Below, one piece after another: positions 1 to 30,812 of a DNA stretch of 30,812 nucleotides (position 1 is the stretch's first letter; every line of letters begins with the position of its first letter). The position numbers and the translations under genes are program-made. Source of the stretch: Saccoglossus kowalevskii. Taxonomy: Eukaryota > Hemichordata > Enteropneusta > Harrimaniidae. Where the stretch lies: NCBI RefSeq assembly GCF_000003605.2, contig NW_003121911.1:585500-616311 (forward strand). Direction: 5' to 3'. Under the pieces are notes generated by a model that was given only the letters and a program-made list of their open reading frames with translations, did no database searches and was not told the DNA's origin.

Positions 1-204
1 TACAATTAACCCCAATAACCAATCACTCTGAAAGTAACCAGCAGAATATAACTTATTGAATAATTTAACTAGTAAAACTGTAAATTCGGTGGGACATTTT
101 TTTAACAATTCAACTGGAATGCCAACATACCCTGTAGCTTTACCCCTTTTCATGTCATGAATTACTTTGTTAACTTCCTCTTTCGCTCCCAAGTTCGTCA
201 CAAT
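1..204 (-). mobile_element. LINE (non-LTR retrotransposon) reverse-transcriptase fragment, cut by the window edge
   Basis: Read on the minus strand, about 62 codons are open from near position 190 down to 1 and continue past the left edge. The peptide has the layout of the N-terminal part of a non-LTR reverse transcriptase: a helix EEVNKVIHDMKRGKATG, then GIPVELLKKC, then KLFNKLYSAGYFQSDW. The family pattern is roughly GKApGpDGIPxELlK followed by LFNxxxxxGxxPxxW. Here the usual P-D-G is Y-V-G and P before the final W block is Q, so this is probably a diverged or dead copy. No stop codon is seen in the visible part. The clade (CR1, RTE, Jockey) cannot be told from so short a piece. It appears unrelated to the neighbouring genes. 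Confidence 0.8.
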
Positions 205-258
205 TAATATGGTTATAATCCTGGTCACTTTCTTGAAAGTTAAAATTTGAAATATTTA

Positions 259-380
259 GAGTCAATGGAAATGTGATCATGCTAGGCAGTTACATCACCA
301 TTTTTGGGACACTTTCCCGCGATATTTATGGCGTATGTGAAACCTAACCAACCTAACTTGTTGACAAGAAAGTACGAACT
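259..380 (+). repeat. Diverged second copy of the cytokine-gene promoter region (dispersed repeat)
   Basis: The segment starting GAGTCAATGGAAATG is repeated at 1140. Shared blocks occur in the same order: GAGTCAATGGAAATGT, TTACATCACCAT, CACTTTYCC, a TATA-like AT run (GATATTTATGG here), TATGTG, and AGAAAGTA followed by AACT. The copy spans the equivalent of the TATA box and 5' UTR of the downstream gene, but no first-exon coding sequence or splice donor is recognisable after it. Two readings fit: a relic of a tandem gene duplication, or two copies of an unrecognised transposon, one of which supplied a promoter. Similarity was judged by eye. Confidence 0.55.
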
Positions 381-1139
381 TGAACTCGGCTCAGAACTGT
401 CCGCAATGAGGCAATGTTGACTAGTAATCAACAGGTGTTCTCTGCACGTAATGTGACGATTCAAATACTTGGGGTCATATTTATGTCTTGAATATTATTT
501 CAGGGTAGACGCGGCATGTTTACGGACAATTTAGAAACATTACACATTATCGATATTTCCAGTGAGATGTTCCATTCAATAAATTGAAAGGAACAAATAA
601 GAATAAGGGATGTCCTAGCTTGTGATTTGTGACTTTGTCATAGCGCTGAGCAATACTGTTAAAGTGATCAGCATGTAAACAACTGGTCATGAGATTCGTA
701 ATGCAGAAACAAGTTCAGCTACTCCGAGCAGTTTTTTTCAGTGACTTTCTAATCACCAGCCACGCGATGCCGGGAAACCATTAACAACATTTCAGGAAAC
801 TCCTGTGCCTGGGTGTGTGAGCCGAGTTCGTTCTTAAATCAAGTTATTCACCGGTGCGTTCACTGCAACCCACGTCTTTAAAACGAGGGCTTTAAATTTA
901 CCGGGCGGGAATTTTCGACTACTATATACTGACTATTCAAGTACGCCACGCAATGACAACACGGCGTTGATATTTTGGTTTGTCCTAAAGATATTGTGAC
1001 AAAATTTCCCCGTTCTAATATATTAAACAGTGTCGCCATGACGATGTCACACTAACTTTTACATAATAACATATCTATTATGATATATTTTTGATATTTT
1101 TAGACAAGCGGAATAGGATATCCTGTGAGTAGGATAGCG
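381..1139. other. Gene-free stretch
   Basis: No long reading frame, RNA gene or delimited repeat is seen. There is a good acceptor-like site at 731-742 (T-run then CAG), but it is followed by only a dozen open codons and no donor. I see nothing else that can be supported. Confidence 0.5.
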
Positions 1140-1262
1140 TGAGTCAATGGAAATGTTGTTATTCCTGATAATTACATCACCATTCGGTTCGGGCCACTTT
1201 TCCAGTACTATATAAAAACCTTGGTCAGTATGTGTAAAATATTGTCAGTCGCATTTTGTCGA
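1140..1262 (+). promoter_or_regulatory. Core promoter of the helical-cytokine-like gene: TATA box and initiator
   Basis: TATATAAAAA lies at 1209-1218 and a TCAGT initiator at 1245-1249, with the A at 1247 the likely start site, 36-38 bases after the TATA box (slightly long). The start codon at 1321 follows an inferred 5' UTR of about 74 bases with no upstream ATG. Upstream, TGAGTCA at 1140-1146 is a textbook AP-1 site, followed at once by GGAAA (1149-1153), a minimal NFAT-like core. This block is duplicated at 259-380. A TATA-type, tightly placed promoter suits an inducible gene, but inducibility is inference. Confidence 0.55.
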
Positions 1263-1320
1263 GAAAGTATCAACTCTGATTCATTTAGAACGCACTTTCA
1301 AACTCGATTTTTGGAAGAAA

Positions 1321-3584
1321 ATGACTACATTTCAAGGTGAGTAAAACATCGACTCGCGTTATTTTTGTGTTCAAAGAGCTTGTTATAGTGGGCAGTTTGT
1401 GTAATAAGTGCAGATAAAATACATTATTCCTATTTGTGCATCGACTCTCGTTCACAGTTGATAAAAACATATATTTAACTTTTTGAGCGCCATGATCGGG
1501 TTGCCTCGTCAACTTGAGTCGGTGCACCATTTTCCATGTATTGTTAATTTATTTGATAATTTTTAACCAAATGGACATACTTTCCTACTGGCTACATTAA
1601 TTTCATAACAAATTTAGAAACAAATATGTGAGAAAAAATTATTGGGGTGAATTTGGCACGAGAATATGTGTTCGTGTTATTTATCTACTCGGTTTCTGTG
1701 TTTATGTTTTACATAAATGTTGTACAAACTTTTATTTTGAAGATTCGCTGCTACGTGTCACTTGCTATATCCTAGTAGTCATGACGTCACAAACAATCGG
1801 CACGCCCATCGTCACACCGACGCTGTTACCATCGAGCTGTGGTGAGACCTGTGAAACGCTTGGCTTGTTGGGACAGGCAGGACATACCCTAAAGACCTAC
1901 GGAGTTTTGACCTGGCAGAAACATGTACGTATTAAAAACGTAAGTCACCATGACAATTAATGACGTTGAGAAATCCATTGATTTAGGGAGATCTAATGTG
2001 AATAAAATATAGTCTCATTAACGTCATATTGGCTTGACGGATGACTTTCTAAATTCAGAGACTGACTGAGACTCCTCGTGATTTGTCGTATACAATTTTA
2101 CAATTCGATACGATAGCGGAAATACCATGATGAACTTGTTCACGGCGGCATACAAAGAGCGGTGCGATTACCGCTAGATTATAAGGGGTGCTGCTCTACA
2201 CTAAGTCAACACGTTTGAGTATAAATCATGAAGACAGTTCAGTTTACTGTAGTGGCCATAACATACCAGAAGTGTGTTAAAACAGCCGGCAAGTTTGTAC
2301 AAGATCTAACAATACAGCGTACAGCATTTCATTCAGTTGACACGATCTAAAAACCCGTGGCTTCGTGACGCCAAAAATAGAACATTTTCCAGGAAACTAC
2401 GTCCACTCAGTTTTTCTTTTGATGTTTACCTACTTACGTGGTTAATAAAGAGTGCTACATTCACTACAGCCTCGCTGAATAATAACAACACAAAGCTAAT
2501 TCAATTACTCCGCTTTCTATGTTTAGCAAGAACAGAGACCGGAGACTGTAGGCTACAACTTCGAACTGCCGTCGTTGCCCCGCATTACTCCGCCTTTTAT
2601 TCGCCGTCGCTGGTCGGTAAGTATTATATCTGCAGTATTTGCATTACGGTTACTGACACTATCGGGTAGTACACGATATACGATGACATTACCACGTGAC
2701 CTGAAAATCAGGGCAGTTTTGGATAACGAATTAGCGTACCACATTCCATTTGTTTTGAAATTATAGTGATTTTGTTTAAATTCTAGAATGGAAAGTGTAC
2801 ATTATCATTATACATATTGAAAGTCCCAGCAATGAAACCGATTCAGTCACGCCGATACCTTGAATTCCGTCTTCAATCTAAGCTAAAATTAGTCTGGTAT
2901 CATAGTAAATAAAACAACATATAGAGGGGATTACATTCATACCATTATGAGTCCTATTTCGCTGTAATGTGAAACCGTTAGTCCATTTTTCAGAGGATGT
3001 CTGCTTTATAATTTTATAATTTGTTCGTGTGATTTAACAGGAAGTTGACATACTCGTGTACCACAAGGAGAGTTTGGAGTCATACAGAGAACATTTCGTG
3101 CAATTAAAAGAAGAGGAATATCTTGCAATCCCAAGTTTTCATGATGATTTCCGGAACATGACGTTTTTGTGTGACAGAACTATCACAAAAGTCAGATCAG
3201 CGGTAAGTATATATTTGCTAGCCATATGTGTATGATAACAGTAGACGGTGTGTTGACATCGTTCAATGGCGACTGACAACCACGATGTAATTTTCCGCTG
3301 ACAATGTTTGCGTGTGTTATTAATGAATAACAGGACATTCGAACACGCACATGTACGATCGTGCATTTTAATAACTCAATGTCATAATTTTTCAGTTATG
3401 TGTACATGAGTTCGATGACAGTCCACCTACCCAAATCGATCTTGAAGAGATTGAAAGCGATGACCTCCGATTCTGGAGACAACGGAAAGTTCTGAAGACT
3501 TTCATTGACTACGTCGCTGGTGTACAGCAGGATGCAGAACGAATCCGTTTCGAGGTTCACATGTGTCCTTTCCCTGGCAACTAA
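1321..3584 (+). CDS. Putative secreted class I helical cytokine, IL-6/CNTF/CLCF1-like (4 exons)
   Basis: Coding exons are 1321-1336, 1743-1924, 3041-3202 and 3396-3584 (stop TAA). Splicing gives 182 residues. Intron phases are 1, 0, 0. Donors are GTGAGT, GTACGT and GTAAGT; acceptors end GAAG, ACAG and TTCAG. The ATG has A at -3. Residues 1 to about 25 form a leader whose first five codons sit alone on exon 1 (hydrophobic core VTCYILVVM). Four predicted helices follow: A about 42-72, B about 76-95 (SLESYREHFVQLKEEEYLAI), C about 99-126 and D about 142-175. Helix D begins DDLRFWRQRKVLKTFIDYV, the place where LIF/CNTF-type ligands carry site III contacts. Five cysteines remain after the leader (C38, C42, C110, C122, C177), with one N-glycosylation sequon at N105 (NMT). 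Known for the family: class I cytokine genes often have a phase-1 leader intron and then phase-0 introns. Inference: a secreted ligand for a gp130/LIFR-type receptor. A second donor at 1940 would add five residues. It is well supported as a gene; the cytokine assignment rests on pattern, not on a search. Confidence 0.7.
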
Positions 3585-3725
3585 AATTCAGATCACCCGA
3601 GTCTTATTTTAGTATAGTAGTGTTAGTAGTGCAGTATGTCATCACAACTAATAGCTTTGTGCACGAAATTGGCCGCTGATGTCTCGTTCAGAGCGAGATA
3701 CCTCGAGACTTGCACTTACTTCTCG

Positions 3726-3731
3726 AATAAA
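3726..3731 (+). terminator. Polyadenylation signal of the cytokine-like gene
   Basis: AATAAA lies 142 bases after the stop codon, giving a short 3' UTR of about 160 bases. No cluster of ATTTA instability motifs is seen in it. Confidence 0.6.
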
Positions 3732-5017
3732 GACCCATTCTCTTCCGTCTCCGCACCCACTGCTTCATTGACCAATGTCATCATTATCTTTTGAACAGTG
3801 AACGTGTTGGCATGGGAGAAGAACAAAAGTCTCGCGGCTCTCACACTCTGAGCAAAATCTCGACAGTCATTTGTGTTTATTGTATATTGTGAGGGTTCAA
3901 TTTTGTTTGTTGGCACTGTGATGACATGATGCTTCTCTTGTTGTTTTTTTGACTAATGGGATCAGATTATGATGGCCTATTTCAGGCCAAACTTCACCAA
4001 GTAATGGTAAATATTATTAACACGCGATCCGCAAGCCTGAGTTCTATCTTGTTTTTGGGGGGTATTTTTGTTTTTGAAAGAATTCCGTTCTAATCGGCGA
4101 ATAAGTATAATCTATATATATATATTGATAGTTTTTTTGGAACTCATAAAAACGAATACAAGAAATGATATATTTCACCGTCGAGGGCGCGACATCCGAC
4201 GCAATTTGTATTGAAAGTGAGATAAAATACCCCAAATAAAACGAGAATATTATTTAAGGCTTGTTGGTCCAAAATGTAAGCGGTATTCGCTTCTATTAAT
4301 CACATTTGTATGGATGATTATAATATTTATATTACATCCGCGTTGACGACATTAGTTGTAACAACTTGAAAGTTCTTTGGGAATACTGCAGGCATTAGAC
4401 TACTTGAAATTCGCTAAAGTTGATCGCAGCCATTTTGAATCACATATTTCATATTGTAAAGGCAGCCATACTATCATTATTTCTTCTTCTTGTAGGAGTA
4501 CAGACGTTAAACGACATTAACAAAAGAGATTAGTAGTTGTATGTATGCATATCATCAAATATAACCAAGTGTATACCAAATATTTTACATAATTTTAGAT
4601 TTTGTTCGATTTATTTTGTTATACGGCTACCTTTATTAATATTTGAACACATTTTCGCCGACGTGCGAAAACAATTTTAACTCAGTTTTTGACCTACGCT
4701 GTAAATCGGGGCCTAACAGGGGCATATGCTTTGCAGGGCATTATTCAGCCATTATTAATATTTATAAATAAAATTGTTAACAACATATTATCGTGTTTTC
4801 TCGTCTTTTCATCACCATTATCAAATATATGTAGTTGTTTTCGATTATCATACAATAAGAAGCTCCATCTCTCTAAGTACAGTGTCTTTAAATGGGCAGT
4901 GACATACTCCGAGTCAGTAGTTAAATACATGTATTTGAATTCGACTCGCACTGCCGTGAATTAGGCCAAACTGAGAATATTATGAGAAGGAAACCATAAA
5001 ACACTAATCAGAAGTTG
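3732..5017. other. Intergenic spacer between two convergent genes
   Basis: AT-rich with a short TA run near 4115-4127. A 52-codon open stretch without a start (about 4361-4519, + strand) and a 60-odd-codon minus-strand frame ending near 3716 are both within what AT-rich DNA gives by chance. No RNA gene or repeat is recognised. Confidence 0.5.
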
Positions 5018-5023
5018 TTTATT
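5018..5023 (-). terminator. Polyadenylation signal of the deiodinase gene
   Basis: TTTATT on the + strand is AATAAA on the minus strand, 158 bases past the deiodinase stop codon. The candidate SECIS element lies between the two, as a 3' UTR element must. Confidence 0.6.
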
Positions 5024-5048
5024 CACCAGTCAAATGCAGTACTCATAC

Positions 5049-5118
5049 AGGTAGTTTGGGGGATTCAGCCACATCGGTCGTCATGGAGACGGCTACCTAA
5101 GTGACGTCATAAGTACCT
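5049..5118 (-). promoter_or_regulatory. Candidate SECIS element in the deiodinase 3' UTR
   Basis: On the minus strand an ATGA (5110-5107) can form the SECIS quartet with a GA at 5066-5065 (TGAA). Between them, GTCACTTAGGTAG pairs with CGACCGATGTGGC at 10 of 13 positions, one of them G-T. The apical loop then starts with CC (CCGTCTCCATGA) instead of the usual AA; CC loops are known in a few selenoproteins. Outside, AGGTA pairs with TACCT as a short helix I. Position is right: 63 bases after the stop codon and about 25 bases before the AATAAA. The mismatches and lack of AA keep confidence moderate; no folding program was run. Confidence 0.4.
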
Positions 5119-5180
5119 TGTACGGCGACATGTTGTGTCATATAGCATACAACCATGCAATTAAAATATAATACCAAAAG

Positions 5181-7390
5181 TTATAGTTTAGAATCCGGGA
5201 AGCGCTCTTCCAACCATTCACAAAGTTCATCTGTCATTAATTTTTCTGGTTCTTCTAACTGAATTAGTATACTCCTTCCTACATACGCAATCTTTCCCTT
5301 TTCAATTACATATACACGATCTGGAGAGGCAGCGTAACCAACCGAGAAATCATCCTCCATGTTGTCCACCACTACACGACATTTATTCAGACTCTCAATG
5401 TCGGACGTCAGAATATTAAATTTGTCCATTTTGATAAGCGATCTGAAAATAATGAGGAAAAAACACACAATTACACTGGCCCGGGGACTGAAATTAACTT
5501 GGTTTATACTAATCAGGGTCGTCGTACGATGGTTTCCCAGGGTGGCATTGTAAATAAACTGCACCACAGTTTGTACCAATCCCGATAAGTTATAACAATC
5601 CACATGTCGTATTATAAGAATAGCGAGGTTTTGTTCGATGGTCACTGATTACAACTATGCCCCCCCCCCATGACAGTGAATGCTTACCTGGCAGCTGCCA
5701 GTCTGTCTTCCAGCGTTCTGTGATTTTCAATGAAACTAAAATGCGATCCCATTCTCCATCCGTCTTTAGGATGAGCTTCTCTGATGTAAACAAATATAAA
5801 CTCTACTTTTTCTTTGTACCGATGCAACAGTACAGACAAGCCATCGCTGTGTACGATAGCCTAGCAACGATAAATATGATGAATAAATTAAGAGTTAAGA
5901 TTCATTTTTGATTAAAAAATAATTAGTAAAAGGTTTAATTTAACGTTTTCTTGCCTGGTAACTTACCCGAAGTGGAGGTCAGGATAAGGAACCTGCAATC
6001 ACCACGAGAGGTCTTTCTTTGTTCATCCAGAGATTTTCCATTTGTATTATTTGTTGCGTTTCTATGGATACCAAACCAACATTTGGTGCTATGTCGCCAG
6101 GATCAAGTTCAGAAGCTGTCACAGGGGGTCCAGTGTCCATCAACATTTCAATTATGCCCATTACCTGAAAGCAATACGCACATGTATAACATATAATGTA
6201 TGTTAGAGTATACGATTATCACGGAATCGTTTGGTTTCGGGCTTCATGATGGATGAACGTTACTCGAATATATACCGTGTATAATAATATATTTTTAGAA
6301 GAATGTCATAGAACACTAAACCAAATCGAGAATAATTTATAAAGCTAACCACACCTTTTATTAACACTAGAGGTGTATAATATTTTCAAAATAAAATTGA
6401 GCCGTTACAGTTCTGATATATATATTGCGCTGAGTATGTGTTGGTTGCTTCTCGCTCAGGTAAGAAATATCTCCGCTGTACACATTTTTTTTTCAATTTG
6501 AGAAACAAGTCCAGCACGCTGATGAATTGAATACATAAATTTGATGTAGAAAATAATTACAATTCAGAATAGCGTATTAAATGAAAATCACTTTAGGTGA
6601 ACATGATAAAGCTGCCCTTTTTGAGCTGCACAAAGAGGAAGCCGTCTTATCCGGAGTCAAAAATATCTTCACTTTTTACCAAAAATGACAAAATATTCAT
6701 CCACACTAATGAATTGAACATATCGTCACAAAAGACAACTCAATATATGCTGAACATCAAAACAATTAGACTTAGTATGACGTTTTATCAAAAATGACAA
6801 AACTATTCGTCAACATTAGAGAACTGAAGATATTGTTACAAAATGAACAAATCAGAGACAGGTCAACCTGAGATACCTATATATGTTTAGTACCGAAGCA
6901 ATTAGGTTACTAGTATAAAAAATGACAAAACATATTTTTCACAATTAGAGAATTAAGGATATCATCACGGAATTAACAAATATTATAAAAAAAGATGTAC
7001 ATTTGTCGTGAGTATGAAACCCATATAGCTGGCCGTTTTTAAGAGGAAGTTGGCCACGAACATGTATCTAAAGACCATAGACGGCGCCCTCTTTAGGCGT
7101 ATTTTTTTTAAAACAATGTGCCATGTTACCTCCTGATCGGCACCATATAGTGATAAAATGTGGACCATAAATGGCATCTCTAGCACACCAGGATCCACGC
7201 CGTTCTCCAGCAAGCACTGACGTTCAACGCGTCTGATAATTTTCTTATTCGTCTTGACCAACATTTTCGGATTTACTTCCGGATTCATCATCCTGTCATA
7301 TTTTTCTAGCGTGTCCGCTTCGTGCAAAATCTCCACAAATCGGCGGAGAATTTTCAATACAAGCGGCCGATCGTTAAAAGGTTCTGCCAT
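5181..7390 (-). CDS. Iodothyronine deiodinase, selenocysteine enzyme, complete (4 exons)
   Basis: Exons on the minus strand are 7390-7130, 6164-5967, 5860-5688 and 5442-5181 (stop TAA), intron phases 0, 0, 2. Donors are GTAACA, GTAAGT and GTAAGC; all acceptors end in AG. Reading the UGA at 5981-5979 as selenocysteine gives 297 residues with Sec149. Family hallmarks: ERPLVVIAGSLS-Sec-PPLR (vertebrate enzymes have GSCT-Sec-PPF), FIFVYIREAHPKDGW with E181 and H183, ENHRTLEDRLAAAR with H200, CRVVVDNM, and the tail PDRVYVIEKGKIAYVG then ELCEWLEERF. It would remove iodine from thyroid hormones or related iodotyrosine derivatives with a thiol cofactor; inner- or outer-ring preference cannot be read. 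Odd points: no N-terminal membrane anchor is visible, and residues 1-90 form a soluble, charged helical region unlike the vertebrate N terminus. The start chosen has GAAG before ATGG. A T-run ending GGAG just upstream could be an acceptor, so an upstream exon remains possible. A paralogous exon relic lies at about 9600-9770. Confidence 0.93.
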
Positions 7391-23565: not shown

Positions 23566-23677
<112 letters not shown>

Positions 23678-23783: not shown

Positions 23784-25580
<1,797 letters not shown>

Positions 25581-27399
25581 TGACAGCTATAGATTAAAAT
25601 TGTTAATTTATAATTTATTTGAAAACAACAACAATTAGTAACAGAAATATACGCGAAAGTGTAGAAACAGGACATCGTAAAGAGAAAGAAGACTATAGGT
25701 ACTGAAAACAAACGTGACGTTCAATCCCAGGTAACAAATACGATAATTTTGTTATTATGTTTGAATCACACAGTGTCAGTAACATATGAAACGACTAATC
25801 GGTATAACATGAGTCCCTCCCTGCATACCCTGGCTGAATGGTCAGTTCTATTCGATATGACCATCATCATAGCAGTACACCACTGCCGACTGATGTGATT
25901 GTTGAATATTACATGCGTGTATCGATTCGATCTCAGCATCTCCGCCACTTTGCAATGACCATGAACAGGAACTTTGATTAACCATTATGATGACAAATTT
26001 TGTTGAGCAAGTAACGACTGAATTATTTGATTACAAAAGATATTTCCATTCATAACTTTCTCAGCGGAGATCCTTTTTCAATAAATGCTTTGTTCGTGTC
26101 AGAGACGATAACATCAGTACCGTCCGTGCGTGTGCCAACTCCCACTGCCTTCAGCTTCCAAATTGAACTAAAGGCATCGATATATACTACCCATTTACGC
26201 GGAAAATAACACCAATATTTTTTTTTCTCATCAACTCCGAAAATTCAAGACAAATGAAGTGAGAATTAGTGTTCACTGGCCAATAAAGAGTTCACATTGC
26301 TAAAAAGGAAATTATTGCTTCCCAATCAAGAGGACACCCGACAGCGAATTAGAATTACTGACGTGGTAGTTTTTGTGCTTTATATTTACACAAATATACA
26401 TCAAAAGATTAATAGAAAGTGAAGTTCCGTTTGCATCATAAAATGTTGCCACCATGTGGGCAAAACTAATTTCGCCAAAACAGGTTTGATTATGACTTAT
26501 TTCATAGCGGTCCTCTGCTAAGCCGTATCATTAGCTGTGTTCTGGTAAAGTCGGAATAGGAACTCAATTTAGCAGTTTATTAAGACATTATGAACATACT
26601 GTTATATGATGGCAAAAATTCATCAATATCTTTAAAAAGCCGTGCATAACGAGCTCTGAGTGGATCGGAAACGCGGCATATATGTCCTCCTTATTAGAGT
26701 TTATTACTTAAGACAAACAACATGGAGAGGAAATATAGAAAAACCAATGAAAGCCCATGGGTTACCAAATTATTAGTAATTAATCTTTCGTCGCGATATT
26801 AGTTCGCTGAATATTACTCTCAGCGGCGACTGAAAGATAAACCATCCGGGGTAGCAGGGTTCCTATGGAAACTCATTAAAAAATAAAGTCGTAAAAAGTG
26901 ATGTTATTTCGCGGTGATTTGATGCGTGAGAGCACGCCAATAATGTTCATTTAGTTTTATGGATTTCTGTTTCTCTCTTCCGGAAAATAAGCCGAAAGGA
27001 TTTTTTACACTCAGTATTCATTGGCGAGAATGAATGGTGAGAAACTGTAATGACGACTTTCCTATATAGAATGGATATATACCCAGCGAGACGTACCACT
27101 GGGTCTTTGTCCAGACCATCGATATCATGAATTTCGTATAATATTAAAACATATCGCGTGACTCTTTCAATTCCTGTATCAATTTGTGTCGTTATATGGG
27201 GTACACGCTATAGGGGACTTTATTATGTCGTTTCAAGTTGTAACCTAAAACAACCGAAACAACTGATTTATTGTTTGTTCTCGCCTACTCTTTTTGTATA
27301 ATGTTTAAATCATTGCCGAGCGAAAAGAAAGAAGTAGAAAAAAAAACAATTCTATCGATTTAGTGCCATTAAGCAAATAGATTGGTGTTATTGTATTAG
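25581..27399. other. Gene-free stretch
   Basis: AT-rich with short open frames only. No delimited repeat, RNA gene or credible splice pair was found. Confidence 0.4.
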
Positions 27400-29696: not shown

Positions 29697-30812
29697 TCAT
29701 GTGGTCCATGAAGTATTGCAATAAGTCACTGGAGATATAGAAATATATTGATGTAACACCACATTATGTGGTTCATGATGTATTGATTATTGATTGGTGT
29801 CTATGATGTATTGATGTAACATTACTCCATGGTGTCCATAATGTATTTATTTTACATCACGCCATGGTGTATATGATGTGTTGAAGTAACATCACTCCAT
29901 GAGGTACATGATGTATTGATTTTACATCGCTCCATGGTGTCCATGATGTATTGATGTAACATCATTCAATGGGGTCATTGATGCATTGATGTAACATCAC
30001 TCCATGGGGTCCATGATGCATTGATGTAACATCACTCCATGGTGTCTATGATGTATTGATGTAACATCACTCTATGGGATCCATGATGTATTGATTTTAC
30101 ATCACTCCATGGTGTCTATGATGTATTGATGTAACATCACTCTATGGGGTCCATGATGTATTCATGTAACGTCACTCCATGGGGTTCATGATGTTTTAAT
30201 GTAGCAGGACTCTGTGGGGTTCACGGTGTATTGATGTAACATCACTATGTAGGGTTCATGACGTATTGATGTAACATCACTCCGTGGGGTTCATGATGTA
30301 TTGATGTAACATCACTCCATGGGGTGCATGATGTATTGATGTAACATCACTCTATGGGGTCCATGATGTATTGATGTAACATCACTCTATGGGGTCCATG
30401 ATGTATTCATGTAACATCAATCCATGGGGTTCATGATGTATTGATGTAACATCACTCTGTGGGGTCCATGACGTATTGATGTAACATCACTCCATGGGGT
30501 TCATGATGTATTGATGTAACGTCACTCTGTAGAGTTCATGATGTATTGATGTAGCAGGACTATGTGGGGTTCATGGTGTAATGATGTAACATCACTCTGT
30601 GGGGTTCATGATGTATTGATGTAACATCACTCCGTGGGGTTCATGATGTATTGATGTAACATCACTCTATGGGGTCCATGATTTATTGATGTAACATCAC
30701 TATATGGGGTTCATAATGTATTGATGTAACATCACTCCATGGGGTTCACGATGTATTGATGTAACATCAATATATGGAGTTCATAATGTATTGATGTAAC
30801 ATCACTTCATGA
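29697..30812. repeat. 35-bp minisatellite with higher-order structure, running off the right edge
   Basis: About 30 tandem units of 35 bases, consensus close to GATGTAACATCACTCCATGG followed by GGTTCATGATGTATT. Units are degenerate on the left (29697-29850) and well conserved to the right, continuing past the window. Two private variants recur exactly 350 bases apart: GTAACGTCAC (second half at 30171 and 30521) and GTAGCAGGAC (30201 and 30551). This shows a ten-unit block was duplicated. Another variant, TTTTACATC with GGTGTC, marks every second unit on the left (29851, 29921). The unit length is not a multiple of three and no long frame crosses it, so it is non-coding. Confidence 0.95.

Follow-up and report, generated by a model that had tools for sequence, protein, structure and literature searches.

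A candidate gene on the + strand at positions 1321-3584 of a 30,812-nucleotide (nt) stretch of Saccoglossus kowalevskii DNA, contig NW_003121911.1 (the window, whose numbering is used throughout), probably encodes a long-chain class I (type I) helical cytokine. The locus itself is very probably a real gene. Its predicted open reading frame comprises five exons of 16, 197, 90, 162 and 189 nt, which splice in frame into a protein of 217 residues, and its four introns have the phases 1-0-0-0. The in-frame splice plan and the phases are read directly from the following exons:

1321..1336, + strand: exon 1, 16 nt; opens the leader with the start codon (5 1/3 codons, MTTFQ); followed by a phase 1 donor, GTGAGT
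1743..1939, + strand: exon 2, 197 nt; completes the leader and continues with Cys38 and Cys42 of the N-terminal part and the proposed helix A; followed by a phase 0 donor, GTAAGT
2527..2616, + strand: exon 3, 90 nt; Pro-rich A-B crossover loop (QEQRPETVGYNFELPSLPRITPPFIRRRWS); phase 0 donor GTAAGT
3041..3202, + strand: exon 4, 162 nt; proposed helix B, a short turn and proposed helix C, with sequon N140; followed by a phase 0 donor, GTAAGT
3396..3584, + strand: exon 5, 189 nt including the stop codon TAA; last part of the proposed helix C, then the C-D loop, in which Cys157 lies, the proposed helix D and the C-terminal Cys212

A preliminary description of this locus had proposed four exons splicing in frame, with phases 1-0-0, into a class I cytokine of 182 residues. 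The four exons it named (1321-1336, 1743-1939, 3041-3202 and 3396-3584) have consensus splice sites and the frame is kept across all of them, but the count was too low, five exons being most likely: exon 2527-2616 had been overlooked. This exon is open and in frame, has a GTAAGT donor and an acceptor ranked 5 of 138, and its GC content (0.567) is the highest of the five. The four-exon model was rejected, as it omits this open in-frame exon, without which there is no A-B crossover; skipping of the exon is possible. The protein has 217 residues with the exon and 187 without it, so that the length of 182 was discarded, and over four introns the computed phases become 1-0-0-0. Thus, the exon features first described were real, whereas the model built from them needed correction.

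The predicted gene follows the class I plan, with five coding exons, a leader exon of a few codons and phases 1-0-0-0. The phases and the exon sizes correspond to those of the IL-6 and GH genes, and a tiny first coding exon is typical of IL-6-family genes. The human IL-6 and IL-11 genes are described as having five exons and four introns. Within the protein, cysteines are found at positions 13, in the leader, and 38, 42, 145, 157 and 212, and a single N-glycosylation sequon at N140; the five mature cysteines and the one glycosylation site of the preliminary description therefore stand. The chain is hydrophobic close to its N-terminus, with an 18-residue Kyte-Doolittle mean of up to 1.36 at residues 7-24 in the putative signal peptide, and the mature protein would have about 190 residues. 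Between the proposed helices the loops run long-short-long, with the Pro-rich 30-residue exon as A-B loop, a short B-C turn and an acidic, Pro-containing C-D loop. This order, which is the layout needed by an up-up-down-down bundle, emerges only when exon 3 is included, and the order of the segments in the sequence is consistent with such a topology. The tiny leader exon, the phases, the length of the mature chain and the loop order together make the fit to the class I plan. Poorly conserved fish cytokines have likewise been assigned partly through exon organisation and predicted helices (PMC4690019).

From these features we infer how the gene could work. A TATA/AP-1 promoter would drive the five-exon gene, and the leader would be removed from a secreted, N-glycosylated protein of 217 residues, whose mature chain may fold as an up-up-down-down four-helix bundle. 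The proposed segments are helix A (about 41-68), a long A-B crossover (about 69-100, supplied mainly by exon 3), helix B (about 101-129), a short turn, helix C (about 135-158), a long C-D crossover (about 159-173) and helix D (about 174-207). Such a topology would put Cys38, Cys42, Cys157 and Cys212 at one pole, where disulphides could tie the N-terminal part to both the C-D loop and the C-terminus. The ligand would then bridge two class I receptor chains of the gp130/IL6R type, leading to JAK-STAT activation.

Several results weigh against this cytokine reading. Neither the five-exon nor the four-exon protein matched any Pfam family at E <= 10; the sole match in PDB was a peroxiredoxin (5ykj, E 0.67), and the protein database likewise yielded no relative at E <= 10 (85 and 6 candidates). 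As a different protein from this contig is present in that database, no annotated protein of 0.55-1.75 times this length is apparent here. The search of the genome (572.1 Mb assembly for all genome searches) gave four matches, all of them the gene's own exons, and thus no second copy. The similarity to CNTF and CLCF1, the two cytokines compared, was not significant. The odd number of mature cysteines leaves one without a partner, and the JAK that a 2026 survey found in S. kowalevskii has a kinase domain only (PMC13203501). Simple helix measures did not help either: the helical moments of the proposed helices A to D, compared with shuffles, gave p = 0.31, 0.76, 0.08 and 0.25, none reaching 0.05, and with a second set of helix limits 0.13, 0.76, 0.10 and 0.51. 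A crude Chou-Fasman prediction gave B as helical, but D as extended over about half of its length, A over much of it and C over most of it. The moment test is non-discriminating, because the known helices of CNTF fail it too (0.33, 0.33, 0.12 and 0.36); those of CLCF1 gave 0.02, 0.71, 0.04 and 0.27, and the helices of both proteins often fail the moment or the Chou-Fasman test.

Within the class I reading, a narrower alternative is that the gene belongs to the IL-6/CNTF/CLCF1 subfamily and is orthologous to the vertebrate gp130 ligands, which is possible but doubtful. The likeness to the vertebrate family (IL-6, IL-11, CNTF, CLCF1, CT-1, LIF and OSM) lies in the secreted size class, in the five exons and four introns with a very small first coding exon, as is usual in the family, and in the proposed helices A to D with long A-B and C-D loops. 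Unlike that family, the candidate occurs in a hemichordate and has neither a Pfam match nor significant similarity to CNTF or CLCF1, control proteins giving values of up to 1.95. Moreover, the five-exon plan fits genes of the GH and G-CSF type equally. The CNTF family PF01110 had no matches in the genome, although the control genomes likewise gave none, and the absence of matches to STAT_alpha (PF01017) is uninformative, because genes are searched one exon at a time and none of the controls reached the cut-off. The earlier cytokine interpretation is upheld in part: gene plan and loop layout fit it, whereas the particular resemblance to IL-6, CNTF and CLCF1 that it had claimed was not significant.

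A less probable alternative to the class I reading is that the gene encodes a real, fast-evolving secreted protein found only in hemichordates and of unrelated fold, its phases and exon sizes being coincidental. The lack of any sequence relative speaks for it, as do the simple measures, which do not demonstrate helices, and at phase frequencies of about 0.5/0.3/0.2 a few per cent of genes with four introns would have phases 1-0-0-0 by chance. Against it, a 16-nt leader exon, three phase-0 introns, these exon sizes and loops in the order long-short-long occur together, which is a specific pattern. In addition, class I cytokines commonly lack sequence similarity to one another: CNTF and CLCF1 both failed to match another cytokine in PDB at E <= 10. 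The class I cytokine remains the preferred reading of the protein.

That the model is spurious, made of chance open frames and splice-like sites, or that a real gene has partly different exons, is improbable. Chains were scored by splice sites and open frame, with no term for coding potential. The model scored 68.2, which none of 1000 dinucleotide shuffles reached (best four-intron chain 64.4), and when up to six introns were allowed the real sequence scored 79.3 against a maximum of 71.1 in 100 shuffles. The model's donors rank 1, 2, 3 and 6 of 176, although its acceptors rank only 5, 9, 12 and 16 of 138. On the + strand of 1321-3584 the three GTAAGT and the one GTGAGT are exactly its four donors, the whole window having seven of each on that strand. 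The GC content is 0.465 in the exons versus 0.358 in the introns, and a TATA box and a poly(A) signal are correctly placed. On the other side, no annotated protein was seen for the locus, and, of 44 pieces taken from elsewhere on the contig, on both strands and free of N, one scored at least 68.2. The model is also not the single optimum, as an alternative four-intron chain, with a start at 1230, exon 2 ending at 1841 and a third exon at 2393-2612, scored 68.3. Both chains have in common the acceptor at 1743 and the exons 3041-3202 and 3396-3584. The score therefore supports a four-intron gene, but does not by itself pick the middle exons; exon 2527-2616 was found whole in the best five-intron and six-intron chains.

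A class II helical cytokine (interferon or IL-10 type) is very improbable: the five exons, the proposed helices and the likely secretion would suit that secreted helical class, and fish type I interferons also have five exons, but their four introns are all phase 0 (PMC4929537), which argues against class II for a gene with phases 1-0-0-0, in which a phase 1 intron interrupts the frame after 5 1/3 codons.

Sequence patterns of the putative regulatory regions are as follows:

1140..1146, + strand: perfect AP-1 site TGAGTCA, the sole TGA(C/G)TCA in window 1-4900; overlaps the repeated block 1141-1184
1209..1217, + strand: TATA box TATATAAAA, about 110 bases 5' of the start codon
1245, + strand: initiator-like pattern TCAGTC
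2387..2395, + strand: STAT-type pattern TTCCAGGAA in intron 2, the sole TTCN3GAA in window 1-4900
3726..3731, + strand: AATAAA, a poly(A) signal some 140 bases 3' of the stop codon

The 44-nt block 1141-1184 (GAGTCAATGGAAATG...TTACATCACCATT) recurs upstream at 259-302 with 80% identity and is either a dispersed repeat or a duplicated promoter module. The stretch 241-341 has a flank copy at -2061..-1961, about 2.0 kb before the window start (101 bases, 99% identity), and 413-939 of the 5' flank has a 71%-identical copy at about -5440..-4942, about 5.9 kb upstream, over some 550 aligned bases. Tandem paralogues were considered in view of these flank copies and rejected, as a tblastn search of the window plus 60 kb of flanking sequence, in which some stretches are N, detected no second copy of the exons. 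In intron 1, the stretch of about 1518-1656 resembles at least 39 other genome sites (73-95% identity over 37-130 bases, with 40 of the 45 candidates scored) and is therefore placed in a dispersed repeat. Farther away, at 29795-30811, a 35-bp unit is repeated about 29 times in tandem with 85% matches, and further tandem arrays are found at 23568-23677 (ACAG) and 25433-25581 (TAAA).

An iodothyronine-deiodinase-like gene lies at 7390-5181 on the - strand, in tail-to-tail orientation to the candidate gene. Its exons were read by eye:

7390-7130, - strand: deiodinase-like exon
6164-5967, - strand: deiodinase-like exon
5860-5688, - strand: deiodinase-like exon
5442-5181, - strand: deiodinase-like exon

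The protein matches DIO3 (4tr3, E 9.3e-20) and DIO2 (9h48, E 1.3e-19), and the first two exons correspond to the 148-residue RefSeq protein LOC100366751 of S. kowalevskii, whose presence on the contig led to the rejection of a vertebrate origin of the DNA. This entry ends exactly at an in-frame TGA at 5981-5979 on the - strand and thus looks like a truncated selenoprotein; we take the TGA to sit at the selenocysteine position of deiodinases. If read as selenocysteine, it would need a selenocysteine insertion sequence (SECIS). No convincing SECIS was found 3' of the gene in 5181-2500 on the - strand (Rfam on 3500-5500 and two pattern-plus-fold scripts); the second script gave one weak candidate, inside the antisense of the cytokine candidate gene.

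In the open-licence literature searched, no such cytokine gene was found in print. In a 2021 survey no member of the IL-6 superfamily was found among invertebrates (PMC8226699), and a review of the amphioxus GH-like protein (GHl) states that neither acorn worms nor sea squirts yielded such a gene (PMC9010856). GHl, a type-I helical cytokine of 208 residues from an invertebrate deuterostome with low identity to the vertebrate members, resembles the candidate; compared by its published description, it differs in being a chordate gene that is reported active and has a GHR-like partner (PMC9010856). The insect Unpaired (Upd) proteins are also invertebrate JAK-STAT ligands, called IL-6-like by the authors of the two surveys (PMC13203501, PMC8226699), but form an arthropod family, the comparison again being by description. 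The 2026 survey searched by BLAST at E <= 1e-5 and identity >= 30% (PMC13203501), and a gene such as this candidate would be missed at these cut-offs. An S. kowalevskii RNA sequencing experiment with poly(I:C) has been published (PMC10210618).

In the 2026 survey, IL-6-family ligands are found in vertebrates only, whereas its tree includes an IL6R-like protein of Saccoglossus, for which a JAK is also listed (PMC13203501). The gene described here is thus a testable candidate ligand, and the chances are about even that it is a true long-chain class I cytokine and the missing ligand of the IL6R/gp130-like receptor of Saccoglossus. If so, the origin of class I cytokine signalling would move outside the chordates, a receptor without ligand would gain one, and a full ligand-receptor-JAK-STAT axis would be older than the split between Ambulacraria and chordates. 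Similar ligands would have been overlooked elsewhere, since gene plan and fold survive where sequence does not, and the 1-0-0-0 exon plan combined with the long-short-long loop layout would offer a route to search for more of them.
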